Made by a program: the position numbers and the translations under genes
NCBI GenBank assembly: GCA_016875405.1
Contig: VGRJ01000007.1
Location: forward strand, 1-64,000
DNA length: 64,000 bases
Direction of reading: 5' to 3'
Origin: Deltaproteobacteria bacterium
Lineage (GTDB): Bacteria > Myxococcota_A > Polyangia > Polyangiales > Polyangiaceae
Notes under the pieces: model-generated
The model's input: the letters and a program-made list of their open reading frames with translations, nothing else
What the model was told of the DNA's origin: nothing
The model's database searches: none
Part shown: positions 20,413-32,140 of the stretch, in pieces
Numbering within the stretch: the stretch's first letter is position 1
Layout: each line of letters begins with the position of its first letter

Positions 20413-23400
20413 TCATGCTCTTGGTCGCTTCGGCGCTCGGCGCGCGGGCCCCACACCTGCGCCGACGAACGCTTCGAGCACCTTCCCCGTCGGCGTCCCG
20501 AGGGACACGACCTCCTCGGGAGGGCCGCTCGCGACGATCGCTCCGCCCCCCTCGCCTCCCTCCGGTCCCAGCTCGACGACCCAGTCGCTCGCCGCGATCA
20601 CGGCGGGGTGGTGCTCGATCACCACGAGGGAGTCGCCGCGCCGAACGAGCGAGTCCATCACCTCGACGAGGCGCGCGACGTCGCCGTGATGAAGCCCTGT
20701 CGTGGGTTCATCGAGGACGTAGAGCGTCGGGCGATGTCGGCCGGTCGCGGTGAGCTCCGCCGCGAGCTTGAGACGCTGAGCCTCCCCCCCCGAGAGCGTC
20801 GGTGAGCCTTGCCCGAGCTGGAGATAGCCGACGCCGAGCCGCGCGAGTGTCTCGAGAGGACGCGCGATTGTGGGGTGCGAAGCGAAGAGCGTCGCAGCCT
20901 CATCGGCGGTGAGCCGGAGGACATCTCCGATCGAGAGTCCCTGCCATCGAACCTCGAGCGTCGACGGCTCGAAGCGCGCACCGTGACATGCGTCGCACAC
21001 GGTCTCGACGTCCGGGAGGAACGACATCTCGTGCGCGATCACGCCGAGCCCCTCGCAACTCGTGCATCGCCCGCCCGCGGCCGCGCTGTTGAAGGAGAAC
21101 CGCGTCGCCCCAAAGCCTCGCATCCGCGCCTCGGGGAGCCCCGCGTAGAGCTTTCGAATCGGGTCCCATATCCCGAGGAACGTCGCCGGCACCGAGCGCG
21201 ACGTTCGGCCAATCGGGGCCTGATCGACCGCAACGGCCCGCGCCAGCCCCAGGGGCAACTCGAGCTTCGCGCGCGTTCCTCCGACGAGCCCGAGCGCACG
21301 CCTCACCGCGGGATAGAGGACCCGTCCGACGAGCGTGCTCTTACCCGAGCCCGACACGCCCGCCACGACGCACAGTCGCTCGGCGGGGATGCGAAGATCG
21401 TCGATGACCAGGTTGTGAAGCCGCACGTCTCGCAACCTGAAGTGCTGCGTCGGAGGCGGGAGCTTCTCGCGCCGAACGAGCGCCGACTCGTCGCGGAGAG
21501 CTCGCCCTGTCGGCGACCTCTCGCTCGCGAGCACCTCGTCCGGAGCGCCGATCGCTTGGATGCGACCGCCGCCGCGCCCACCGGTCGGCCCGAGGTCGAC
21601 GAGGTAGTCTGCGGCGCGGATCATCTCGGCGTCGTGCTCGACGACCAGCACCGTGCTCCCGGTGTCGCGGAGCGCTCGTAGGTTCGCGAGCAACCGATGG
21701 GTGTCGCGCGGATGGAGCCCGATGGTCGGCTCGTCGAGGACGTAGAGCGCGCCGGTGAGTCCGCTGCCGAGCTGCGCGGCGAGCCTGAGACGCTGCATCT
21801 CACCGCCCGAGAGCGTCTGCGCGGGACGCCCCAAGCTCAGGTAGCCGAGCCCGACCTCGGCGACGAACTCGAGGCGCCTCGTGAGCTCGACGAGCGGTGC
21901 GCGCGCGACCTCGGCGCGAGGCCCATCGAACGAGAGGGCGCGGGTGGCCGCGGCGGCACGCGCGACCGAGAGCGCGAGCATCTCGTGATAGCGACGACCA
22001 CCGAGGCGCACGGCCCGCGGAATCGGCGCGAGTCGCGCTCCCTCGCAGACGCGACACGGCTCGACGTCGGGAGCCTCCGCCGCCTCGTCGAGCGAGCCGC
22101 AAACGAGGGACTTCGCCGCCTCGACTCCGCCCTCGACGCCGGTCCCTTCGCAGGCATCGCATCGCCCCTGCGCGGTGTTGAAAGAGAACCACCTCGGGTC
22201 GAGCTCTGGGACGGCCAGCGCACACGTCGGGCACGCTCGCTCGGTCGAGAACGCCGTCGTCGACTCGTCCTCGTGACGGAGCACGACGTGACCGCGACCG
22301 AACCGAAGCGCGAGCTCGAGCGCGTCGCGCGTACAGTCTCGCCATCGACCCTTGAAGAACACGAGCTCGATCGTGTGCTCGCGCGTCTTGGCGAGGCGCG
22401 GCGGAGAGTCCACGGCTCGAAGCGCCCCATCGACGACGGCCTCGGTGACGCCCGCCCGCTCGGCCACCGTGAAGACGTCGAGGTGCGTCCCCTTGCGCGC
22501 GCGAACGACGGGCGCGAGCAGCCTCCCCTTGCCGGCGCGCTTCGTCACACGCTCGAACACCGTCGCGCTCGACATCGGCTCGATCGGACCGTCGCACGAC
22601 GGACAATGCGGCACGCCGACCTTGGCGTAGAGCAAGCGTAGGTAGTGCGCGATCTCGGTGACCGTCGCGACGGTCGAGTTTGCGCCGGCCCGCGCCGTCC
22701 GCTGCTCGAGCGCGACCGAGGGTGGTACGCCGTGAACCATGTCGACGTCGGGCTTCGGCATCGTTGGCAGGAACTGGCGCGCGTAGGGTGTCAGCGTCTC
22801 GAGGAAGCGCCGCTGCCCCTCGGCGAACACCACATCGAACGCGAGCGACGACTTACCGGAGCCGCTCGGTCCGGTGACCACGACGAGCTTGCCGCGCGGG
22901 ATGTCGACGTCGACCTCCGCGAGGTTGTGCTCTCGGGCCCCGCGGATGACGATCGACTCGGCGACGCCTCGGGCGCCGGCCTCGCGGCCTACCGCAGCGT
23001 CGCGAACGACGCCCGGCGACGAGGGCCGGCACGCGAGCGCGAGTGCTCGCCCGGTGCGCGTCGCCTCTCGTGAGAGCTCGCGGGGCGTCCCCTCGAACAC
23101 AACCACGCCGCCGCCGCTCCCGGCACCTGGACCAAGCTCGACGACCCAGTCCGATGCAGCGATGACCGACGGGTCATGTTCGACGACGAGAACCGATGCC
23201 CCCCGCTCGGCGAGCGCGCGCAGGCAGCGGCTGAGCCGCTCGACCTCGAGGGCGTGGAGCCCCGCGCTGGGCTCATCGAGCACGACGAGCACCCCCTCAC
23301 CCGCGTCACGGATCGCCTTCGCCAGCTTCAGCCGCTGCGCCTCGCCGCCCGAAAGCGTGGAGAGCGGCTGACCGAGCGTGAGGTAGTCGAGCCCGAGCTC

Positions 23401-25767
23401 GACGAGCGGCTCGAGCGCGCGCGCGATCGTCGGCTCCGTCGCGCCGCACCAGTCGAGCACCTCGCGGACCGACATCGCCATCACGTCGGAGACCGACCGT
23501 CCGTCGAGCAGGACCTCCAGCACCTCGGGGCGAAAGCGCCGACCGCCGCACGCCGGGCAGGTGAGCCGAACGTCCGCGAGGAACTGCATCTCGACCGTCT
23601 CTGCGCCCTCGCCCGAACACGCCTCGCAGCGACCGGCCGCGACGTTGAACGAGAAGTGCGATGCCGTGAGCCCAGCGAGCTCGGCGGCGGGCTGCTCGGC
23701 GAAGCGCTGGCGAAAGCGGGACCAGCAATCCGTGTAGGTAGCCGCGTTCCCGCGAGACGTGCGCCCGAGCGGCGCCTGGTCGACGAGCAGCACCGAGCGC
23801 AGCGACTCGAGACCCTCGAGACCGTCATGCGCTCCCGGGAGCTCGCCCTCGGCCTCTCCGAGCGCGCGCGCCGCCGCGCGATAGACGATGTCTTCGACCA
23901 GCGTGCTCTTCCCCGAGCCGCTAGGACCACAGACCGCGACCACCCTGCCGAGCGGGAGTGCGACGTCGACGCCGCGGAGGTTGTTGGCGCGGGCGCCGCG
24001 CACTCGAAGGACACGACCGTCGAGCGCACGAGGCGCGCCGAGCGTCACGGCGTCGAGGGTCTTTGCGGTGCTCCCTCCGTGCCGGCGCGCATCCGTCGGA
24101 GTCCCGTCGAAGACGAGGGCACCCCCCTCTCTTCCAGCGCTCGGACCGAGCTCGAGTACGCGGTCGGCCGCGTCGATGACCCGCGGGTCATGTTCCACGA
24201 CGACCACGGCGTTGCCCCGCCGTGCGAGCTCGCCCATCGCCTCGACGAGGGGCGGGAGGTCGGTCGGGTGCAGGCCGACGGTGGGTTCATCGAGGACGAA
24301 GAGCGCCCCCGTGAGCGAGCTGCCGAGCGCCGCGGTGAGCGACACGCGCTGAGCCTCGCCGCCCGAGAGCGTCCGAGCCTGACGGTCCAGCGTGAGGTAG
24401 CCAAGCCCGACACGCTCGAGGTACCCGAGGCGCATCAGGAGCTCATCCCGCGCGAGGCTCCCCTGCCCGCTCGTCGTCGCGAGCGCCTCCAGCCTGCGCC
24501 GCGCGTCGCGGAGCTCGAGGCCGTGCCAGTCCCCGAGATCGAGCCCATCGACGCGGTAGCCGAGCGCAGTCGGGCCGAGCCGCTTTCCGCCGCAGGCGCC
24601 GCAGGGATCGTAGGCGCGGTAGCGCGCGAGCATCACGCGCACGTGCATCTTGTAGCTCTTTGTCTCGAGCCACTCGAACCAGAGCCGCACGCCAGGATAC
24701 TTTCCGCCGGTCCATCCTCCTTCGCCGTCGAGCACGGCGCGACGCTGCTCCTCGGTGAGGTCGCCCCATGGCGTGCTCATCGAGATCCCGCGCCGCTCGC
24801 AGAATTTGGCGAGCGCGCGCCGCTCCCAGGCGGTCTTCTTGCCACGCCACGGTCGAATCGCTCCGTCCGCGAGCGTCGCCTTGGGGTCGGGCGCGACCTT
24901 GTGCCAGTCGACGCCGAGGACCCGGCCGAAGCCGCGGCAGCTGCCGCACGCACCGACAGGCGACTGGTAAGAGAAGAGGCCCGGAGTCGGGGCACGAAAG
25001 CCCTTGCCGCACCCCGGACAAGAGAGACCGCTCGCGAGCGGCAGCACGACGCCACCTTCGACGAACACCTCGGCCCGATCGTCGCCACGGCGCCACGCGA
25101 CCTCGAGGGCCGCTGCGAGTCGCGCGCGCTCGCGAGTGGCGAGCTTCAGGCGATCGACGACGACGTCGAGCCCGCCCCCGACGAGCACGTCCGTCGGACG
25201 CACCTCGTCGAGGTCGCGGGCTTCCCCTCCGACCAAGACGCGCCGATAGCCCTCGCCGAGCAGCCGCTCGCGAAGCTCGAGGTAGTGCTCGGTCCCCTCG
25301 ATTCGAGCGCGATACGTGACGATCGCGCGCTCCCCGTCGTGGGTGTGAATCGCGCGGAGCGCCGCCTCGGTCGGATCCGAGCGCTCGGCGAGGCGCCCAC
25401 ACTCACCGCACAGCGGCCGAGCCTCGCGGAGGAACAGCGCGGCGAGATAGGGCTCGAGGTCCGCCATCGTCGCGACGGTCGAGCGCGAGCTCTTCACGGG
25501 CGCGCGGCGATCCACCGCGACCCCGGCCGCAACGGGCTCGAGCTTGTCCATCGGCGGACGCTCGAGGCGCTCGAGGAACTGGCGCGCGTACGGGCTGAAG
25601 CTCTCGACGAACCGCCGCTGCGCCTCGGCGTACAACGTATCGAAGGCCAACGAGGACTTCCCCGACCCCGAGACCCCGGTCACCGCGACGAGCTCGCCAG
25701 CGCGGAGCGTGACCGACACGCCCTTCAGGTTGTGGAGCCGGGCGCCGGAGAGCTCGATGGTGTGCAT
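20413..25767 (-). CDS. uvrA: Tandem (double-length) excinuclease UvrA
   Basis: 1784 residues, about twice the usual 940. Two complete UvrA units are fused, giving four ABC ATPase modules. Walker A sites lie near residues 31, 613, 965 and 1470 (GVSGSGKSS, GPSGSGKST, GPSGSGKSS, GVSGSGKST). Each is paired with an LSGGE signature (LSGGEAQR or LSGGEMQR) and a Walker B such as FVLDEPTVGLHP. Zinc-binding Cys pairs (CGECG, CPACG, CPSCD) occur in both halves. UvrA normally works as a homodimer to find bulky DNA damage for UvrB; here one chain supplies both halves. Chlamydia species encode a similar dimeric UvrA of nearly this length. Whether a normal UvrA exists elsewhere cannot be seen. A TAGATC box lies 7 nt before the ATG. 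Confidence 0.93.
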   Translation of the reverse strand: MHTIELSGARLHNLKGVSVTLRAGELVAVTGVSGSGKSSLAFDTLYAEAQRRFVESFSPYARQFLERLERPPMDKLEPVAAGVAVDRRAPVKSSRSTVATMADLEPYLAALFLREARPLCGECGRLAERSDPTEAALRAIHTHDGERAIVTYRARIEGTEHYLELRERLLGEGYRRVLVGGEARDLDEVRPTDVLVGGGLDVVVDRLKLATRERARLAAALEVAWRRGDDRAEVFVEGGVVLPLASGLSCPGCGKGFRAPTPGLFSYQSPVGACGSCRGFGRVLGVDWHKVAPDPKATLADGAIRPWRGKKTAWERRALAKFCERRGISMSTPWGDLTEEQRRAVLDGEGGWTGGKYPGVRLWFEWLETKSYKMHVRVMLARYRAYDPCGACGGKRLGPTALGYRVDGLDLGDWHGLELRDARRRLEALATTSGQGSLARDELLMRLGYLERVGLGYLTLDRQARTLSGGEAQRVSLTAALGSSLTGALFVLDEPTVGLHPTDLPPLVEAMGELARRGNAVVVVEHDPRVIDAADRVLELGPSAGREGGALVFDGTPTDARRHGGSTAKTLDAVTLGAPRALDGRVLRVRGARANNLRGVDVALPLGRVVAVCGPSGSGKSTLVEDIVYRAAARALGEAEGELPGAHDGLEGLESLRSVLLVDQAPLGRTSRGNAATYTDCWSRFRQRFAEQPAAELAGLTASHFSFNVAAGRCEACSGEGAETVEMQFLADVRLTCPACGGRRFRPEVLEVLLDGRSVSDVMAMSVREVLDWCGATEPTIARALEPLVELGLDYLTLGQPLSTLSGGEAQRLKLAKAIRDAGEGVLVVLDEPSAGLHALEVERLSRCLRALAERGASVLVVEHDPSVIAASDWVVELGPGAGSGGGVVVFEGTPRELSREATRTGRALALACRPSSPGVVRDAAVGREAGARGVAESIVIRGAREHNLAEVDVDIPRGKLVVVTGPSGSGKSSLAFDVVFAEGQRRFLETLTPYARQFLPTMPKPDVDMVHGVPPSVALEQRTARAGANSTVATVTEIAHYLRLLYAKVGVPHCPSCDGPIEPMSSATVFERVTKRAGKGRLLAPVVRARKGTHLDVFTVAERAGVTEAVVDGALRAVDSPPRLAKTREHTIELVFFKGRWRDCTRDALELALRFGRGHVVLRHEDESTTAFSTERACPTCALAVPELDPRWFSFNTAQGRCDACEGTGVEGGVEAAKSLVCGSLDEAAEAPDVEPCRVCEGARLAPIPRAVRLGGRRYHEMLALSVARAAAATRALSFDGPRAEVARAPLVELTRRLEFVAEVGLGYLSLGRPAQTLSGGEMQRLRLAAQLGSGLTGALYVLDEPTIGLHPRDTHRLLANLRALRDTGSTVLVVEHDAEMIRAADYLVDLGPTGGRGGGRIQAIGAPDEVLASERSPTGRALRDESALVRREKLPPPTQHFRLRDVRLHNLVIDDLRIPAERLCVVAGVSGSGKSTLVGRVLYPAVRRALGLVGGTRAKLELPLGLARAVAVDQAPIGRTSRSVPATFLGIWDPIRKLYAGLPEARMRGFGATRFSFNSAAAGGRCTSCEGLGVIAHEMSFLPDVETVCDACHGARFEPSTLEVRWQGLSIGDVLRLTADEAATLFASHPTIARPLETLARLGVGYLQLGQGSPTLSGGEAQRLKLAAELTATGRHRPTLYVLDEPTTGLHHGDVARLVEVMDSLVRRGDSLVVIEHHPAVIAASDWVVELGPEGGEGGGAIVASGPPEEVVSLGTPTGKVLEAFVGAGVGPARRAPKRPRA

Positions 25768-26362: not shown

Positions 26363-26635
26363 TCAAGCCGAGGACGCCGCCCCGAGGCTCTCCTCGACGA
26401 GCGCGCGCTGCGGTCGAGTGAGGTTCACGAGCCGCCCGTCGACGGTGAACATGCCATCGTCTCTGCGTACGCTTCGCGCCACCTTCAAGTCGAGCACCTC
26501 AGCCGCCTCCTCGACGACCGCCTTCAGCGGAGTACCAGGAGCGTACGCGCGTGAGGCGCGCATCCAGAAGCGCTCGCCCTCGACACGGTCGAGCTCGGCG
26601 GTCGCGCCGGCAGGGAGCGTCAGACGGAGGCTCAT
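26363..26635 (-). CDS. Small conserved-looking protein (90 aa), last gene of the smpB operon
   Basis: Its ATG overlaps the smpB stop (ATGA, 26632-26635), so it is translationally coupled. The sequence is soluble and mixed alpha/beta: an N-terminal beta strand MSLRLTLPAGATAEL, a helix LKAVVEEAAEVLDL, then VDGRLVNLTRPQRALVEE. No Cys/His motif, membrane helix or known family. The position suggests a link with SmpB or the regulator upstream, but nothing in the sequence proves it. Confidence 0.6.
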   Translation of the reverse strand: MSLRLTLPAGATAELDRVEGERFWMRASRAYAPGTPLKAVVEEAAEVLDLKVARSVRRDDGMFTVDGRLVNLTRPQRALVEESLGAASSA

Positions 26636-27126
26636 CCGCGCCTTCCGGAGACCGCCGCGCGAGCCTCTCGATCGGCCTCCTTGCGCTTCAGCGACTCACG
26701 CTTGTCGTGGAGCTTCTTGCCACGAGCGAGAGCGATCTCGAGCTTGGCGCGTCCACCCCTGAAGTAGATCTTCGTGGCGACGACGGTCATCCCCTCGCGC
26801 TCGGTCGCGCGCTCGATCGCGTCGATCTCGTCGCGATTGAGCAGGAGCTTGCGCTTGCGCTTCGGCTCATGACCGAACGGAGTACCGGAGAGCTCGGGGA
26901 TGTTGGCGCCGTGCACGAAGGCCTCGCCGCGCTCGATGGTCACGTAAGCGTCGCTGAGATCCGCCTTCCCCGCGCGCAGCACCTTCACCTCGCTGCCGAT
27001 GAGCTGAAGACCGGCCTCGTAGGTGTCGCTGAGCTCGTAGTCGAAGCTCGCTCGACGGTTCTTCGCGATGATGCCATCCCCGTACTGCTCGACCGCGGGG
27101 GCGTCGTTCTTCTTGTGCTTCGCCAT
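26632..27126 (-). CDS. smpB: SmpB, tmRNA-binding ribosome-rescue protein (internal start within the chaN frame)
   Basis: 164 residues if started at ATG 27126, close to the normal 160. GAGGAG sits just ahead of this ATG (CCCGAGGAGCGC then ATG), a proper ribosome-binding site. Family features are all present: IIAKNRRASFDYELSDTYEAGL, LIGSEVKVLRAGKADLSDAYV, FVHGANIPEL, HEPKRKRKLLLNRDEI, and the Lys-rich tail LALARGKKLHDKRESLKRKEADRE that enters the decoding site. SmpB delivers tmRNA to ribosomes stalled on broken messages. Unusually, the frame is open upstream without a stop and continues into ChaN, so SmpB may also exist as the tail of a longer protein. Confidence 0.93.
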   Translation of the reverse strand: MAKHKKNDAPAVEQYGDGIIAKNRRASFDYELSDTYEAGLQLIGSEVKVLRAGKADLSDAYVTIERGEAFVHGANIPELSGTPFGHEPKRKRKLLLNRDEIDAIERATEREGMTVVATKIYFRGGRAKLEIALARGKKLHDKRESLKRKEADREARAAVSGRRG

Positions 27127-28023
27127 GCGCTCCTCGGGGACGGTCAACACGTAGTCGCTCGCGGCGAGCGAGGGAAGTCCGCCGCGTCCCGAGCGCGTCA
27201 GCACCGATACGATTGGCCCATGGCGGCGACCTGCCGCCTCGAGTCGTCGCGCGATGCGGCGAGGGATCGCGCTGCGATGGCAGTGCCCGTTCCCGGCGAC
27301 GACGACGACCTGTCGCGGCGCGTTCGACGGCACGAGCAACCACGCGGCCGCGGTCGCGGCCATCGTCTCGTCCCAGATCACCTGTGCGGTGTAGAGCGCC
27401 TCCGCGCCTCCCCCATGGGCGTGTGCGCCCATCGCCGCTGCGAAGAATCGCTGGTGTTCGGCGTCGTCAAGGACCAGCTCGGGCACCTCTGCGCGCACGG
27501 CGGGCGGCAGCGCGTCGAGCCCCATCTTGGCAACCGCACGCGTCACCTCACGGCGCGCGTTCAGCGCAAGCAAGGCATCGACCGCCCCGCGCGCCCCTTC
27601 GAGCAGCGGGCGATACGGCTCCGGATCGTGCCCCCAGCGATGGGTCCAATCCGTCGCGGCGAGAAGCCCTCGGTGATCGAGCGCGCCGCGATGGTATGCG
27701 TCGAGCGCGGGTTGAGCCGTGCGCTCGAACATTTCGAGCCCAAGGGCCAAGGCGCGCCCTTCAGCGCGCGCCGCCTGCCCCCAGGTCTCCACGAGCCTCC
27801 CGTGCAGCCGGTGATGGGTCGAAGTCCCGTGCTGTTCGCCGAGGCACACGACGTCGGCGCGCGCGCCCATCCGAACGAACTCGGCGAGGGGGACCACGCG
27901 GCCGTTCGCCTCGACCTCCGCCACGATGGGCAGCGGGGCGGCCGCGGGCGCCCTCGCCCCCGAGGGGACGACGCAACCAACCAGCGCGGGCGCGAGCGCC
28001 GCGAGCGCGAGGAGCCGCTTCAT
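26632..28023 (-). CDS. ChaN-like haem-binding lipoprotein, in frame with SmpB (no stop between)
   Basis: The frame is 463 codons long. Residues 1-18 are a lipoprotein signal (ALAPALVGC). Residues about 35-285 match ChaN/DUF399: VVCLGEQHGTSTHHR near the start, LGLEMFERTAQP, TDWTHRWGHDPEPY, and GNGHCHR near the end. ChaN is an outer-membrane lipoprotein thought to bind haem or act in iron uptake. After VLTVPEER the frame enters SmpB directly at its Met. A natural stop codon for ChaN is absent. Either the native product is a secreted ChaN carrying an SmpB tail, or a stop was lost by mutation or sequencing error. It starts at an ATGA overlap with the regulator gene upstream (28020-28023). Confidence 0.8.
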   Translation of the reverse strand: MKRLLALAALAPALVGCVVPSGARAPAAAPLPIVAEVEANGRVVPLAEFVRMGARADVVCLGEQHGTSTHHRLHGRLVETWGQAARAEGRALALGLEMFERTAQPALDAYHRGALDHRGLLAATDWTHRWGHDPEPYRPLLEGARGAVDALLALNARREVTRAVAKMGLDALPPAVRAEVPELVLDDAEHQRFFAAAMGAHAHGGGAEALYTAQVIWDETMAATAAAWLLVPSNAPRQVVVVAGNGHCHRSAIPRRIARRLEAAGRRHGPIVSVLTRSGRGGLPSLAASDYVLTVPEERMAKHKKNDAPAVEQYGDGIIAKNRRASFDYELSDTYEAGLQLIGSEVKVLRAGKADLSDAYVTIERGEAFVHGANIPELSGTPFGHEPKRKRKLLLNRDEIDAIERATEREGMTVVATKIYFRGGRAKLEIALARGKKLHDKRESLKRKEADREARAAVSGRRG

Positions 28024-30299
28024 CGCATGGCTCCCGATGGCACGCGCACCGGACCAGAGTCGCTCGGCACCTCGACGAGTCGGCGCCCGAGCGCCTCCTC
28101 GACGTCTGCGAGCGTCACCACGGGCCCCGTGGCCGCTCGTGCCGCGCGGACGAGGACGGCGTGGAGCTCGGCCTCGTTGCCGGGCCAGCCGTACTCGGAG
28201 AGCGCGCGCTGAGCATCGAGCGCAAGGCCGAGAGCCTCCCCGCGCAGCTGAACCCCCAGGCGCGCGAGCTCGTGGAGAGAGAGCGGTCGGAGGTCCTCAC
28301 CGCGCTCGGCGAGGAGCGGTGGCACAACCAACCGGTCGGAGAAGAGCGCCGCGAAGTGCTGGTCGAGCATCCCCGCGGCGAGCATCGCCTGCGGCGCCTC
28401 GGGCAACACGGCGATGACGGCGGTGTCCTCGCGGCGACCAGTCCCGATCGCGCGCTGGACCTCGAGCGGTAGCGCCTGCGCGTCGAGCACGACCAAGCTC
28501 CCTCCGCGGGCGAGCTCGAGCAGAGAGCGCCGCGGCTCGAGCCACGTCTCGAGGAGCTGCTCCTCGCGCCGCATCGCATCGACGATGAGCATGAGCTGCC
28601 CCTGCCGCGGCGAGGCGAGGTGGACGACGGCTGCCCAGCCGAGGGCATCGCCGCCGGGCCGCTGCAGCACGGCGACGGGCTCGCCCCGCGCGCCGAGATG
28701 CTCGGCCGTCGTGAGGGCCATGCGAGCGGCCGGCCCATAGCTCGCCCGTCGCGCGCGCTCGGCGAGGTACACAGCGGCCGCGCGCTGGCGCGCCTCCTCG
28801 CGGGTGAGGCGCTCGCGCAGGGCGTCGATCTCGACCGAAAGGGCGAGCTTGTCACGCTCGGTCTCGACGGCGTGCTCGCGGGAGCGATCGAGTCGCGCCT
28901 CGGCGCCCGCCGCGACGGCGAGGTGGTCTGCAAGGCAACGCAGCGCGCGCACCTCCTCGTACGAGAGCGGCTCGGACCGACCGGCGGAAGGCCACAGGAA
29001 CAGGCCAATCGGTACGTCGTCATCGACGAGCAAGGCGGCCGCTCCCGCGCTGCGACCGTCGAGCCAAGCGAGCCAGGGACGCACCTCTCCCCGCCGGACC
29101 TGAAGCGCTCGCAGCACCTCGGTGCTGACAACGCGCTCCGGCTCCAAGGACGCGAGCTCGACGAGCGCGAGCGGAACCTCGGCATGCTCGCCATGCAAGT
29201 AGCCCGCGCGGTCGACGACCAGCCGGTCGTTCGTCGCAAAGCGATACAGCGCGGCGCTGCCTTCTCCGCTGCCCAGCGCGTCGCGGATGGCCGAGAGAGC
29301 GAGGATCACGGCTTGACGGGGGTCAGGTGCCTTGGCCGCGCGCGTCGCCTGCTCGAGCGCTCGCACGGTCCGTCCTCGCGCAGGCGCCATTCGCTCGGCG
29401 ATGCGAGGCGCGAACATGCCGAGGGCGACCGCGAGCGCCGTGACGATGAAGAGGATCGCACCCGCGTGCGTCGGAGCCTTGTAAGCGATCACGACCGCGA
29501 TCGACATCAGCGGCGTCGCGAGCATCGTGACGGCCGCGAGGAGCCGCAAGACGCGCGCGACGAGCGCGGGACGCTGCGAATTGGAGCACGCCACGAAGGC
29601 GATCGCCGACGCGAGAGACGCGAGTGGCACGAGCCGCTCGGGCGAGGCGACCTCCATCAACGATGCCAGCGCTCCGAGGGCGAGGCACACGACGCTTAGC
29701 CACAGCGCCCCGGCGGCGCGCTCAGCGACACCGAGCTCGTACCGGCGCGCCCGAAAGCTCCGAAAAGAGGCGACCATTCCGATCCCGACCGAACCGAGCG
29801 ACGCGGCGAGCACGGCATAATCGACCGTGAGCGCGTCGACGACGACGTCTCCGGAGAGCGCGCGCAGCGCCGCCACGCCGACCGCTGCCATCCAGAGGAG
29901 TGACGTGGCCCACGCGGCATCGTTCGAGGCATCGAGTGTCCTCGACGTGCCCCCGAGCGCGCCGATTCGCGAGAGGGCGATCGGTGCCGACGTCGCGGCG
30001 AGCGCGAGGCCCACGGCGCGCGCGGCGACGAACGCGGGACGCGCGGGCGCGAGCTCGGCCGTGAGCACCGCGGCGGCGCCCGCGGCGACCCCCTTCGCGG
30101 CGCGACGGGCGGTCGCATCGATCCAATCGGCCCCGAGCGCTGGCGCAGAGGCGAGGCGCCACCCCAGCCCTAGTACGAGCGCCCCGAGGAGGAGACCTGC
30201 CCACGCTTCGGGCGCGTCGGGCGCAGACTGCAGGTGCGCCGCACCCACGTAGAGGACGAGCGCCATGGCTCCCCAGAACGAGCGCTCGCGCACCGGCAT
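28020..30299 (-). CDS. Membrane sensor with GAF-like region and degenerate sigma-54-type ATPase domain
   Basis: 759 residues from ATG 30299. The start is uncertain: the frame extends further upstream into the neighbouring gene and no ribosome-binding site is visible. About ten hydrophobic segments fill residues 1-330. A GAF-like part follows (ALLVDDDVPIGLFLWP), then a coiled coil (about 470-520). The C-terminus resembles a sigma-54 activator AAA+ domain in layout, but key motifs are lost. The Walker A position reads QRPGGDALGWA, the GAFTGA loop is absent, and Walker B reads GGSLVVLDAQALP. There is no DNA-binding helix-turn-helix at the end. So it should sense a membrane signal but not activate sigma-54 by ATP hydrolysis. 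First gene of an operon with chaN-smpB (ATGA overlap). Confidence 0.6.
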   Translation of the reverse strand: MPVRERSFWGAMALVLYVGAAHLQSAPDAPEAWAGLLLGALVLGLGWRLASAPALGADWIDATARRAAKGVAAGAAAVLTAELAPARPAFVAARAVGLALAATSAPIALSRIGALGGTSRTLDASNDAAWATSLLWMAAVGVAALRALSGDVVVDALTVDYAVLAASLGSVGIGMVASFRSFRARRYELGVAERAAGALWLSVVCLALGALASLMEVASPERLVPLASLASAIAFVACSNSQRPALVARVLRLLAAVTMLATPLMSIAVVIAYKAPTHAGAILFIVTALAVALGMFAPRIAERMAPARGRTVRALEQATRAAKAPDPRQAVILALSAIRDALGSGEGSAALYRFATNDRLVVDRAGYLHGEHAEVPLALVELASLEPERVVSTEVLRALQVRRGEVRPWLAWLDGRSAGAAALLVDDDVPIGLFLWPSAGRSEPLSYEEVRALRCLADHLAVAAGAEARLDRSREHAVETERDKLALSVEIDALRERLTREEARQRAAAVYLAERARRASYGPAARMALTTAEHLGARGEPVAVLQRPGGDALGWAAVVHLASPRQGQLMLIVDAMRREEQLLETWLEPRRSLLELARGGSLVVLDAQALPLEVQRAIGTGRREDTAVIAVLPEAPQAMLAAGMLDQHFAALFSDRLVVPPLLAERGEDLRPLSLHELARLGVQLRGEALGLALDAQRALSEYGWPGNEAELHAVLVRAARAATGPVVTLADVEEALGRRLVEVPSDSGPVRVPSGAMR

Positions 30300-30358
30300 G
30301 CTGTTGAGAGCGTAGCGTTGCCCGTCCCGAGTCGCCAACTTGACGACCGAGTACGCCG

Positions 30359-32140
30359 TCAGGGCGAGAAGGCGTAGACGACGCCGTCTTCCAGATTGTC
30401 GGCGGTCTTCACTGCGACGCCTCCAAACAGGTAGCCACCGCTCGTCGAGCCGAGCGCGTAGACGGAGTCCCCGTCGACGAGCGCTGCGAGCAGGAAATCC
30501 TGGGCAGGTCCGCCGATGACGCGCCGCCAAAGTGGCGCCCCCTCACGCGTCGTCCGCACCACGAAGCCGTCGTAAGCCCCGACCGAGTCGACGTCCTTGC
30601 CGAAGAGGTTGAGCTTCCCCGGGCCGCCTCCTGGGCCGATGAACGTGCCGGTGACGGTCAGGTTGCTTGCGGCATCGAACGCGACACGGCTCAACAGCAG
30701 CTCGGCGTTCCCGATGAACGGCTTCGCCCAGCGGACGTCGCCGGTCTGCCCGTCGAGGACGATGACGTAGCCCTCCGAGGCGTCGCCCCCCTTGAAGCCG
30801 ATGTTCTTGTCGACCGACATCTCGTAGAGGAAGCGGCCGCTCACCGCGACGAGCCCGTCGGGCGACAGCGCGACACCGCTGATGCGCTCGGCCGAGCCGC
30901 CCCCGAACACGCGCCACCAGCGCACGGCGTCGACGTCGGGACTTAGGCGCATGACGAGGACGTCGTCGTAGTTGGGCGCGAGCACCGTCGTCCCCGCGAC
31001 GAGCGCGCTGCCTCGGAGAATTCCGGCGACGATGAGATCGCCGTCCGGCGCCACCGTGAGCCGCTCGAAGGTCAGGTAGCTCTGGGCCGAGAGGAAGTCC
31101 TTCGACCACAGCTGCGCACCGTCGAGCCCCAGCTTCACGATGCGTCCGCGCTTCGAGCCGCCGATGCCAGTCACGCCGGCCTCGCCGACGACGAAGAGCG
31201 CGTTCGCCCCAGGTGGCAGGGCGACGTCGTTCATCGAGTCGGATTCGGGGGTGGCTTCGAGCACCTTCGCCCAGACGACCTTCCCCGCGAGGTCGACCTT
31301 GAAGACCATCCCGTTCCGCTGCCCCCCGACGCACGGCGTCGCCGCGGGATCCGGAAACACGAGCCCCTGCGAGCAGAAGCCCACCGCATAGCCCTCGTCC
31401 TTCCCGTCGACCGCGACCGCGAGGACGGCGTCGTCGCCGGACGAGCCCAAGGAAAGCGCCGCCTTCACCTCACCCTTTGCCGTGAGACGCGCCACGAACG
31501 CATCCTGAGCGCCTCCCTGGAACGGCCCGAAGGCTCCGCCGTGCGTGCCCCCGACGAACCACGCACCTTCGCTCGTCCCCACACCGGAGACGATTCGATC
31601 CGAGCCAGGAGACTTGGCTGTGGTCAAGACGCCCTTTGGATCGCCCGTCGCGCAGCGCCCGAGCCCGTCGCAGCGGTTGTCTCCGCACGCTCCGCCAGGC
31701 TCCTCCGTGCCGCTCGCCGCCGCACGGCACGTGCCCTCGAACCCCGGCTCGGCGCACGAGGCGCAGACACCGCACGCGGTCGCGCAGCAGCGCTCATCGA
31801 CGCAGGCCCCACTCTCGCACGAGGAGGCTGCGTCGCAGCTCTCCCCGTCGACGAGGACGCACGCGCCGCTCTCGTTGCAGCGCCGTCCCTCACCGCACGG
31901 AAACTTCGAGGGCACGAGCAGGTCGACGCACGAGCCCGCGTCGCACGACGCCATCCGGCAGGGTTCGCTCGGCTCCGCGCACTCCGCATCGGTCACGCAC
32001 TCAGGGCCCGAGTGTCCTCCGGCCCCGGCGGCCCCACCCGCGCCGGCAGGGGCCGCGGTGGGCTCGTATTCGCCGACGCCGAGAACCTGGGCGCAGGCCG
32101 CCGTGAGGAAGCAGGCGAGCGTAAGAGGCCAAGCCCTCAT
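30359..32140 (-). CDS. Cys-rich lipoprotein with SBBP beta-propeller
   Basis: 593 residues. Signal peptide ends at FLTAAC. A Gly/Ala linker follows. Residues about 50-175 are very Cys-rich, with disulphide-knot-like spacing (CVTDAECAEPSEPC, CDAGSC, CCATACGVCASC). The rest is a chain of SBBP-type beta-propeller repeats (DAFVARLTAKGEVKAALSLGSSGDD, MVFKVDLAGKVVWAKVL, VRWWRVFGGGSAERISGVALSPDG). This architecture is characteristic of surface or outer-membrane proteins in Polyangiales; its binding partner is unknown. It ends 60 bp before the next gene on the same strand and follows the PP2C gene by 7 bp, so the three may be co-transcribed. Confidence 0.8.
   Translation of the reverse strand: MRAWPLTLACFLTAACAQVLGVGEYEPTAAPAGAGGAAGAGGHSGPECVTDAECAEPSEPCRMASCDAGSCVDLLVPSKFPCGEGRRCNESGACVLVDGESCDAASSCESGACVDERCCATACGVCASCAEPGFEGTCRAAASGTEEPGGACGDNRCDGLGRCATGDPKGVLTTAKSPGSDRIVSGVGTSEGAWFVGGTHGGAFGPFQGGAQDAFVARLTAKGEVKAALSLGSSGDDAVLAVAVDGKDEGYAVGFCSQGLVFPDPAATPCVGGQRNGMVFKVDLAGKVVWAKVLEATPESDSMNDVALPPGANALFVVGEAGVTGIGGSKRGRIVKLGLDGAQLWSKDFLSAQSYLTFERLTVAPDGDLIVAGILRGSALVAGTTVLAPNYDDVLVMRLSPDVDAVRWWRVFGGGSAERISGVALSPDGLVAVSGRFLYEMSVDKNIGFKGGDASEGYVIVLDGQTGDVRWAKPFIGNAELLLSRVAFDAASNLTVTGTFIGPGGGPGKLNLFGKDVDSVGAYDGFVVRTTREGAPLWRRVIGGPAQDFLLAALVDGDSVYALGSTSGGYLFGGVAVKTADNLEDGVVYAFSP

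Follow-up and report, generated by a model that had tools for sequence, protein, structure and literature searches.

The window, by which we mean the whole 64,000-nucleotide stretch of DNA analysed here, carries on its minus strand an open reading frame of 463 codons (26632-28023) with no internal stop, in which a lipoprotein signal and a complete ChaN domain are followed by a complete SmpB. ChaN (PF04187) is a family of haem-binding exported lipoproteins, and SmpB is the ribosome-rescue factor of trans-translation, acting on ribosomes in the cytosol. The Pfam matches to ChaN (residues 54 to 257, E = 1e-49) and to SmpB (PF01668, residues 319 to 457, E = 7e-51) are both far over the curated cut-offs, and the SmpB part also lies above the cut-off of the NCBIfam SmpB equivalog TIGR00086. 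The lipoprotein signal, MKRLLALAALAPALVGC, was read by eye and contains the lipobox LVGC; the ChaN motifs EQHGTSTHH and GNGHCHR are both found in the frame. A preliminary description of this DNA had reported the passage from ChaN into SmpB without a stop, together with the signal, the two motifs and an in-frame ATG at 27126 preceded by GAGGAG, and all of these observations are confirmed, the fused frame also recurring in two further species of the genus (genomes G001 and G004). The features of the locus are as follows.

26363-26635, minus strand: downstream gene of 90 amino acids, whose start overlaps the smpB stop by ATGA
26632-28023, minus strand: fused ChaN-SmpB open reading frame, 463 amino acids, uninterrupted also in G001 and G004
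26632-27126, minus strand: SmpB coding region including the stop (PF01668, TIGR00086)
27103-27177, minus strand: junction window, codons -17 to +7 around the SmpB ATG, with the lowest synonymous observed/expected ratio (O/E) of the frame
27124-27126, minus strand: in-frame internal ATG, the putative start of SmpB; it does not vary among the three species and corresponds to the N-terminus of the free SmpBs of relatives
27130-27135, minus strand: GAGGAG, Shine-Dalgarno-like and also coding for Glu-Glu of ChaN, of a strength not beyond what the peptide forces
27127-28023, minus strand: ChaN part, residues 1 to 299 (PF04187; PDB fold match 2g5g)
27973-28023, minus strand: lipoprotein signal, lipobox LVGC (identified by eye; G001 and G004 have lipobox-like signals too)
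28020-30530, minus strand: upstream gene, membrane protein with AAA_lid_14, whose stop overlaps the chaN start by ATGA

Free ChaN proteins carry near their C-terminus a strand of the type DY followed by hydrophobic residues, after which only a few to about 25 residues remain. In the fused frame the corresponding strand is SDYVLTV; PEER and the SmpB methionine come directly after it, so that the ATG at 27126-27124 lies four codons past the last ChaN strand. An AlphaFold model of the fusion places the end of this strand at residue 295, and the best PDB fold match of the ChaN part is 2g5g, the ChaN of Campylobacter jejuni (E = 8.9e-13, TM-score of 0.75 by target length). The ChaN part is therefore untruncated, and the frame consists of a full ChaN and a full SmpB essentially without a linker. 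The model is confident for ChaN and of low confidence for SmpB, since the alignment covers SmpB with only three rows, and the arrangement of the two domains is not readable from it.

The overlap between the upstream gene and chaN (ATGA or GTGA) is present in the window genome, G001 and G004, as is an xTGA overlap between smpB and the downstream gene, and the block of upstream gene, chaN-smpB and downstream gene looks like a translationally coupled operon, judging from these overlaps. The product of the upstream gene is large, with apparent membrane segments; the one Pfam domain it matches, AAA_lid_14, is at its C-terminus, giving the impression of an NtrC-like activator whose AAA+ core is no longer recognisable. 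Genes resembling it precede the chaN/smpB region in G001, G003, G004 and the sister-genus genome G086. Elsewhere in the window, a minus-strand frame of 1784 amino acids (20413-25767) contains two tandem UvrA-like halves, with two UvrA_inter stretches and several ABC segments.

Conservation of the fused frame

We compared the locus across five genomes of the genus (the window genome, G000, and G001 to G004) and 103 other genomes of the family, Polyangiaceae, the organisms of the genus being uncultured and known through metagenome-assembled genomes (MAGs) alone. The same uninterrupted frame is present in three of the five genus genomes, G000, G001 and G004, the latter two being separate MAGs whose frames share 64-65% amino acid identity with that of the window. 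All three species share the junction sequence LAASDYVLTV(P/D)(E/G)ERMAKHKKND, and no indel lies near it. With the Nei-Gojobori method (NG86), dN was 0.20-0.40 for the ChaN half, against a dS of about 1.5-1.7 in the pairs that allowed an estimate (one pair was beyond estimation), and 0.04-0.11 for the SmpB half, with dS about 1.0-1.3. Since dN is well below dS, both halves are under purifying selection as judged from these substitution rates, and synonymous sites are near saturation among the three species. The frame is not a chance opening in GC-rich DNA, given that both halves are conserved proteins and that the whole frame recurs in two other species.

The preliminary description had asked whether the stop is absent in several species, and this is the case for three of the four genus members in which SmpB was found; no SmpB was found in the remaining genome, G002, which is 67% complete. 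The fourth, G003, has an intact SmpB preceded by a short, broken ChaN-like remnant with stops, the remnant resting on a weak alignment. In the SmpB tree G003 groups next to the three species with the fusion, at modest support values (84/62). In G003 a PIN-domain gene and an AbiEii-like gene (L033:3498-4979), both antisense, separate the upstream gene from smpB and take the position of ChaN in relatives. The retention of SmpB in G003 after the loss of ChaN argues that the fusion is not required for SmpB.

Among the matches listed for the 103 other family genomes, no ChaN-SmpB fusion was seen. Partial matches with a fused appearance in G024, G025 and G033 were rejected, as they have stops in frame or unrelated upstream sequence. 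In G086, ChaN lies between the upstream gene and smpB in the opposite orientation (L070:309-2706), an arrangement that suggests an inversion at this locus. From the comparisons with G003, the family and G086, it is probable that ChaN and SmpB came to lie in tandem orientation in this genus or close to it, and on the comparative record the fusion goes back at least to the common ancestor of the three species that carry it.

The possibility that the frame reflects an assembly error or a recently lost ChaN stop, the latter raised in the preliminary description, has a precedent in database entries, where SmpB fusions recorded earlier were errors of this kind (PMC4131195). We give it virtually no credence. 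Two further MAGs, at 64-65% identity, carry the same frame without interruption, which refutes an assembly error; a stop lost only recently is refuted by a fused frame older than the split of three diverged species whose synonymous sites are near saturation. A programmed frameshift that would end ChaN was likewise rejected, as there is no nearby out-of-frame stop common to the three fused species at which translation could terminate after such a shift.

Evidence at the putative internal start

The internal ATG is invariant in the three fused species and sits where the free SmpBs of relatives begin. In a scan of synonymous change over 405 windows of 25 codons in the three sequences, the lowest O/E, 0.40 (13 changes observed against 32.3 expected by amino acid), fell on the junction window (codons -17 to +7 relative to this ATG), and all of the twelve lowest windows overlap it. 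By permutation, with columns shuffled within domain and amino acid, the constraint has a p of 0.0005 for the window itself and of 0.011 for any window of the scan. Most of the signal comes from the pair G001-G004 (0.0005), followed by G000-G004 (0.0125), with the least from G000-G001 (0.056). Such a depression of synonymous change is expected if the last ChaN codons double as the start region of SmpB.

From -25 to +25 relative to the ATG, the mRNA ranks with the least structured stretches of the frame (4/424, 8/428 and 12/425), and a Shine-Dalgarno-like motif, GAGGAG or GGGGAG, precedes the ATG in the three fused species. Both features are mostly forced by the amino acids: upon synonymous shuffling, 31-80% of the variants encoding the same peptide have an equally strong Shine-Dalgarno motif and 6-20% are equally unstructured. 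Within the window, an equally strong motif precedes 25 of the 378 internal ATGs. Motif strength and low structure are thus consistent with an internal start without being decisive, and we rejected them as proof of one, the striking raw ranks following mostly from the peptide.

The fused SmpB is the only SmpB of the window genome, and SmpB is also single in G001 and G004. A tmRNA over the Rfam cut-off is present on another contig of the window genome (G000:C54:114-460, 125.8 bits) and in G004 (126 bits); G001 has no tmRNA over this cut-off, possibly because of an assembly gap. With SmpB in single copy and tmRNA present, cytosolic SmpB would have to derive from the fused locus, if trans-translation works in these organisms. 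As a separate observation, two genomes of the same family, G007 (96% complete) and G027 (92% complete), have a tmRNA over the cut-off and no PF01668 match to SmpB, for which assembly gaps may again be responsible.

Two putative products from one frame

Taken as a whole, the locus is probably a genuine, conserved gene fusion with two translation starts, predicted to yield an exported ChaN-SmpB and a cytosolic SmpB. A ribosome that starts at chaN would encounter neither a stop nor a shared frameshift exit and would read through smpB, making a ChaN-SmpB with a lipoprotein signal; provided that chaN is translated, production of this long form is near certain given the missing stop. A ribosome that starts at the internal ATG, using the last ChaN codons as its binding region, would make an ordinary cytosolic SmpB for trans-translation, and such a free SmpB is supported by the comparative evidence, which draws on three sequences. 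The SmpB tail of the exported form, whose signal peptide was judged by eye in the three species, would be tolerated (our default assumption), trimmed or degraded, which we consider most likely, rather than have a dedicated role. Because the last ChaN strand and the SmpB start region fall within about ten codons, chaN and smpB would be locked together. One locus with two products had already been proposed in the preliminary description. This proposal gains from the missing stop in three species, the single-copy SmpB, the placement of the ATG and the constraint at the junction, and it loses the GAGGAG motif as an independent argument, this being weak by itself in view of the shuffled variants.

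In an alternative explanation, the long ChaN-SmpB would itself be selected, for example because the SmpB tail has an activity prior to export or in place of it, or because translation of chaN over the internal start region tunes the amount of free SmpB. No stop has been regained in three diverged species even though mutation could turn the codons immediately preceding the ATG into stops, and the junction residues are conserved, both of which would fit a selected long product. The conserved junction can be explained by the last ChaN strand and the SmpB start region with no role for the fusion; G003 retains SmpB despite its decayed ChaN, and there is no known target for SmpB outside the cytosol. 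We therefore regard a selected long product as unlikely, albeit a credible option, and if true, as a lipoprotein carrying a rescue factor or as a means of SmpB tuning, it would be the first SmpB fusion with a function. Quite unlikely in our view is that a promoter within the 3' end of chaN gives smpB a transcript of its own and accounts for part of the synonymous constraint. The constraint does extend about 20 codons upstream of the ATG, more than a Shine-Dalgarno motif needs, but it is also explained by the last ChaN strand together with the start region, and the read-through product would remain, which makes this a variant of the model with two starts. Finally, only the long protein might be made, with SmpB activity arising from it before export or after proteolysis. 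This would agree with a frame that has no stop and with a Shine-Dalgarno motif and low structure not beyond what the peptide forces; it is highly improbable, as the lipoprotein signals in all three species would remove SmpB from the cytosol, and neither the internal ATG nor the synonymous constraint on it would have an explanation.

The persistence of this fusion across several species shows that a bacterium can dispense with the stop that would separate an envelope protein from a translation factor and still retain the two; an internal start seems the only workable way of doing so. The locus offers a test set up by nature: can a housekeeping protein be supplied by internal initiation alone, and what becomes of an RNA-binding domain attached to an exported protein?

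SmpB was described as single-domain in a 2014 survey of 4542 SmpBs, in which all five multi-domain Pfam cases were explained as artefacts, three of them possibly sequencing errors (PMC4131195), and beyond that survey we found nothing relevant on ChaN-SmpB or other SmpB fusions in the open-access literature. In-frame internal starts that give rise to two forms are known in bacteria, with some pairs predicted to differ in location and with SsaQ, ClpB, InfB and the short forms of OmpX and PagC as examples (PMC11005335), and isoforms from such starts occur in Mycobacterium tuberculosis (PMC9094748). The SmpB described here resembles known SmpBs (PF01668, TIGR00086) in its complete domain above the equivalog cut-offs, its single copy and the tmRNA in the genome, but its coding sequence forms the 3' part of a lipoprotein frame, whereas known SmpB is single-domain. 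The ChaN part shares with other ChaN proteins (PF04187; 2g5g) the lipoprotein signal, the full domain and the best fold match in the PDB, and differs in continuing into SmpB after the last strand. With dual-start genes (PMC11005335) the locus has in common one frame, two putative starts and a common C-terminus; unlike in those genes, the short form would be a complete housekeeping protein in its own right, to which the long form would add an entire, unrelated exported protein. A conserved SmpB fusion of this kind, resolvable by a second start, appears to be new.
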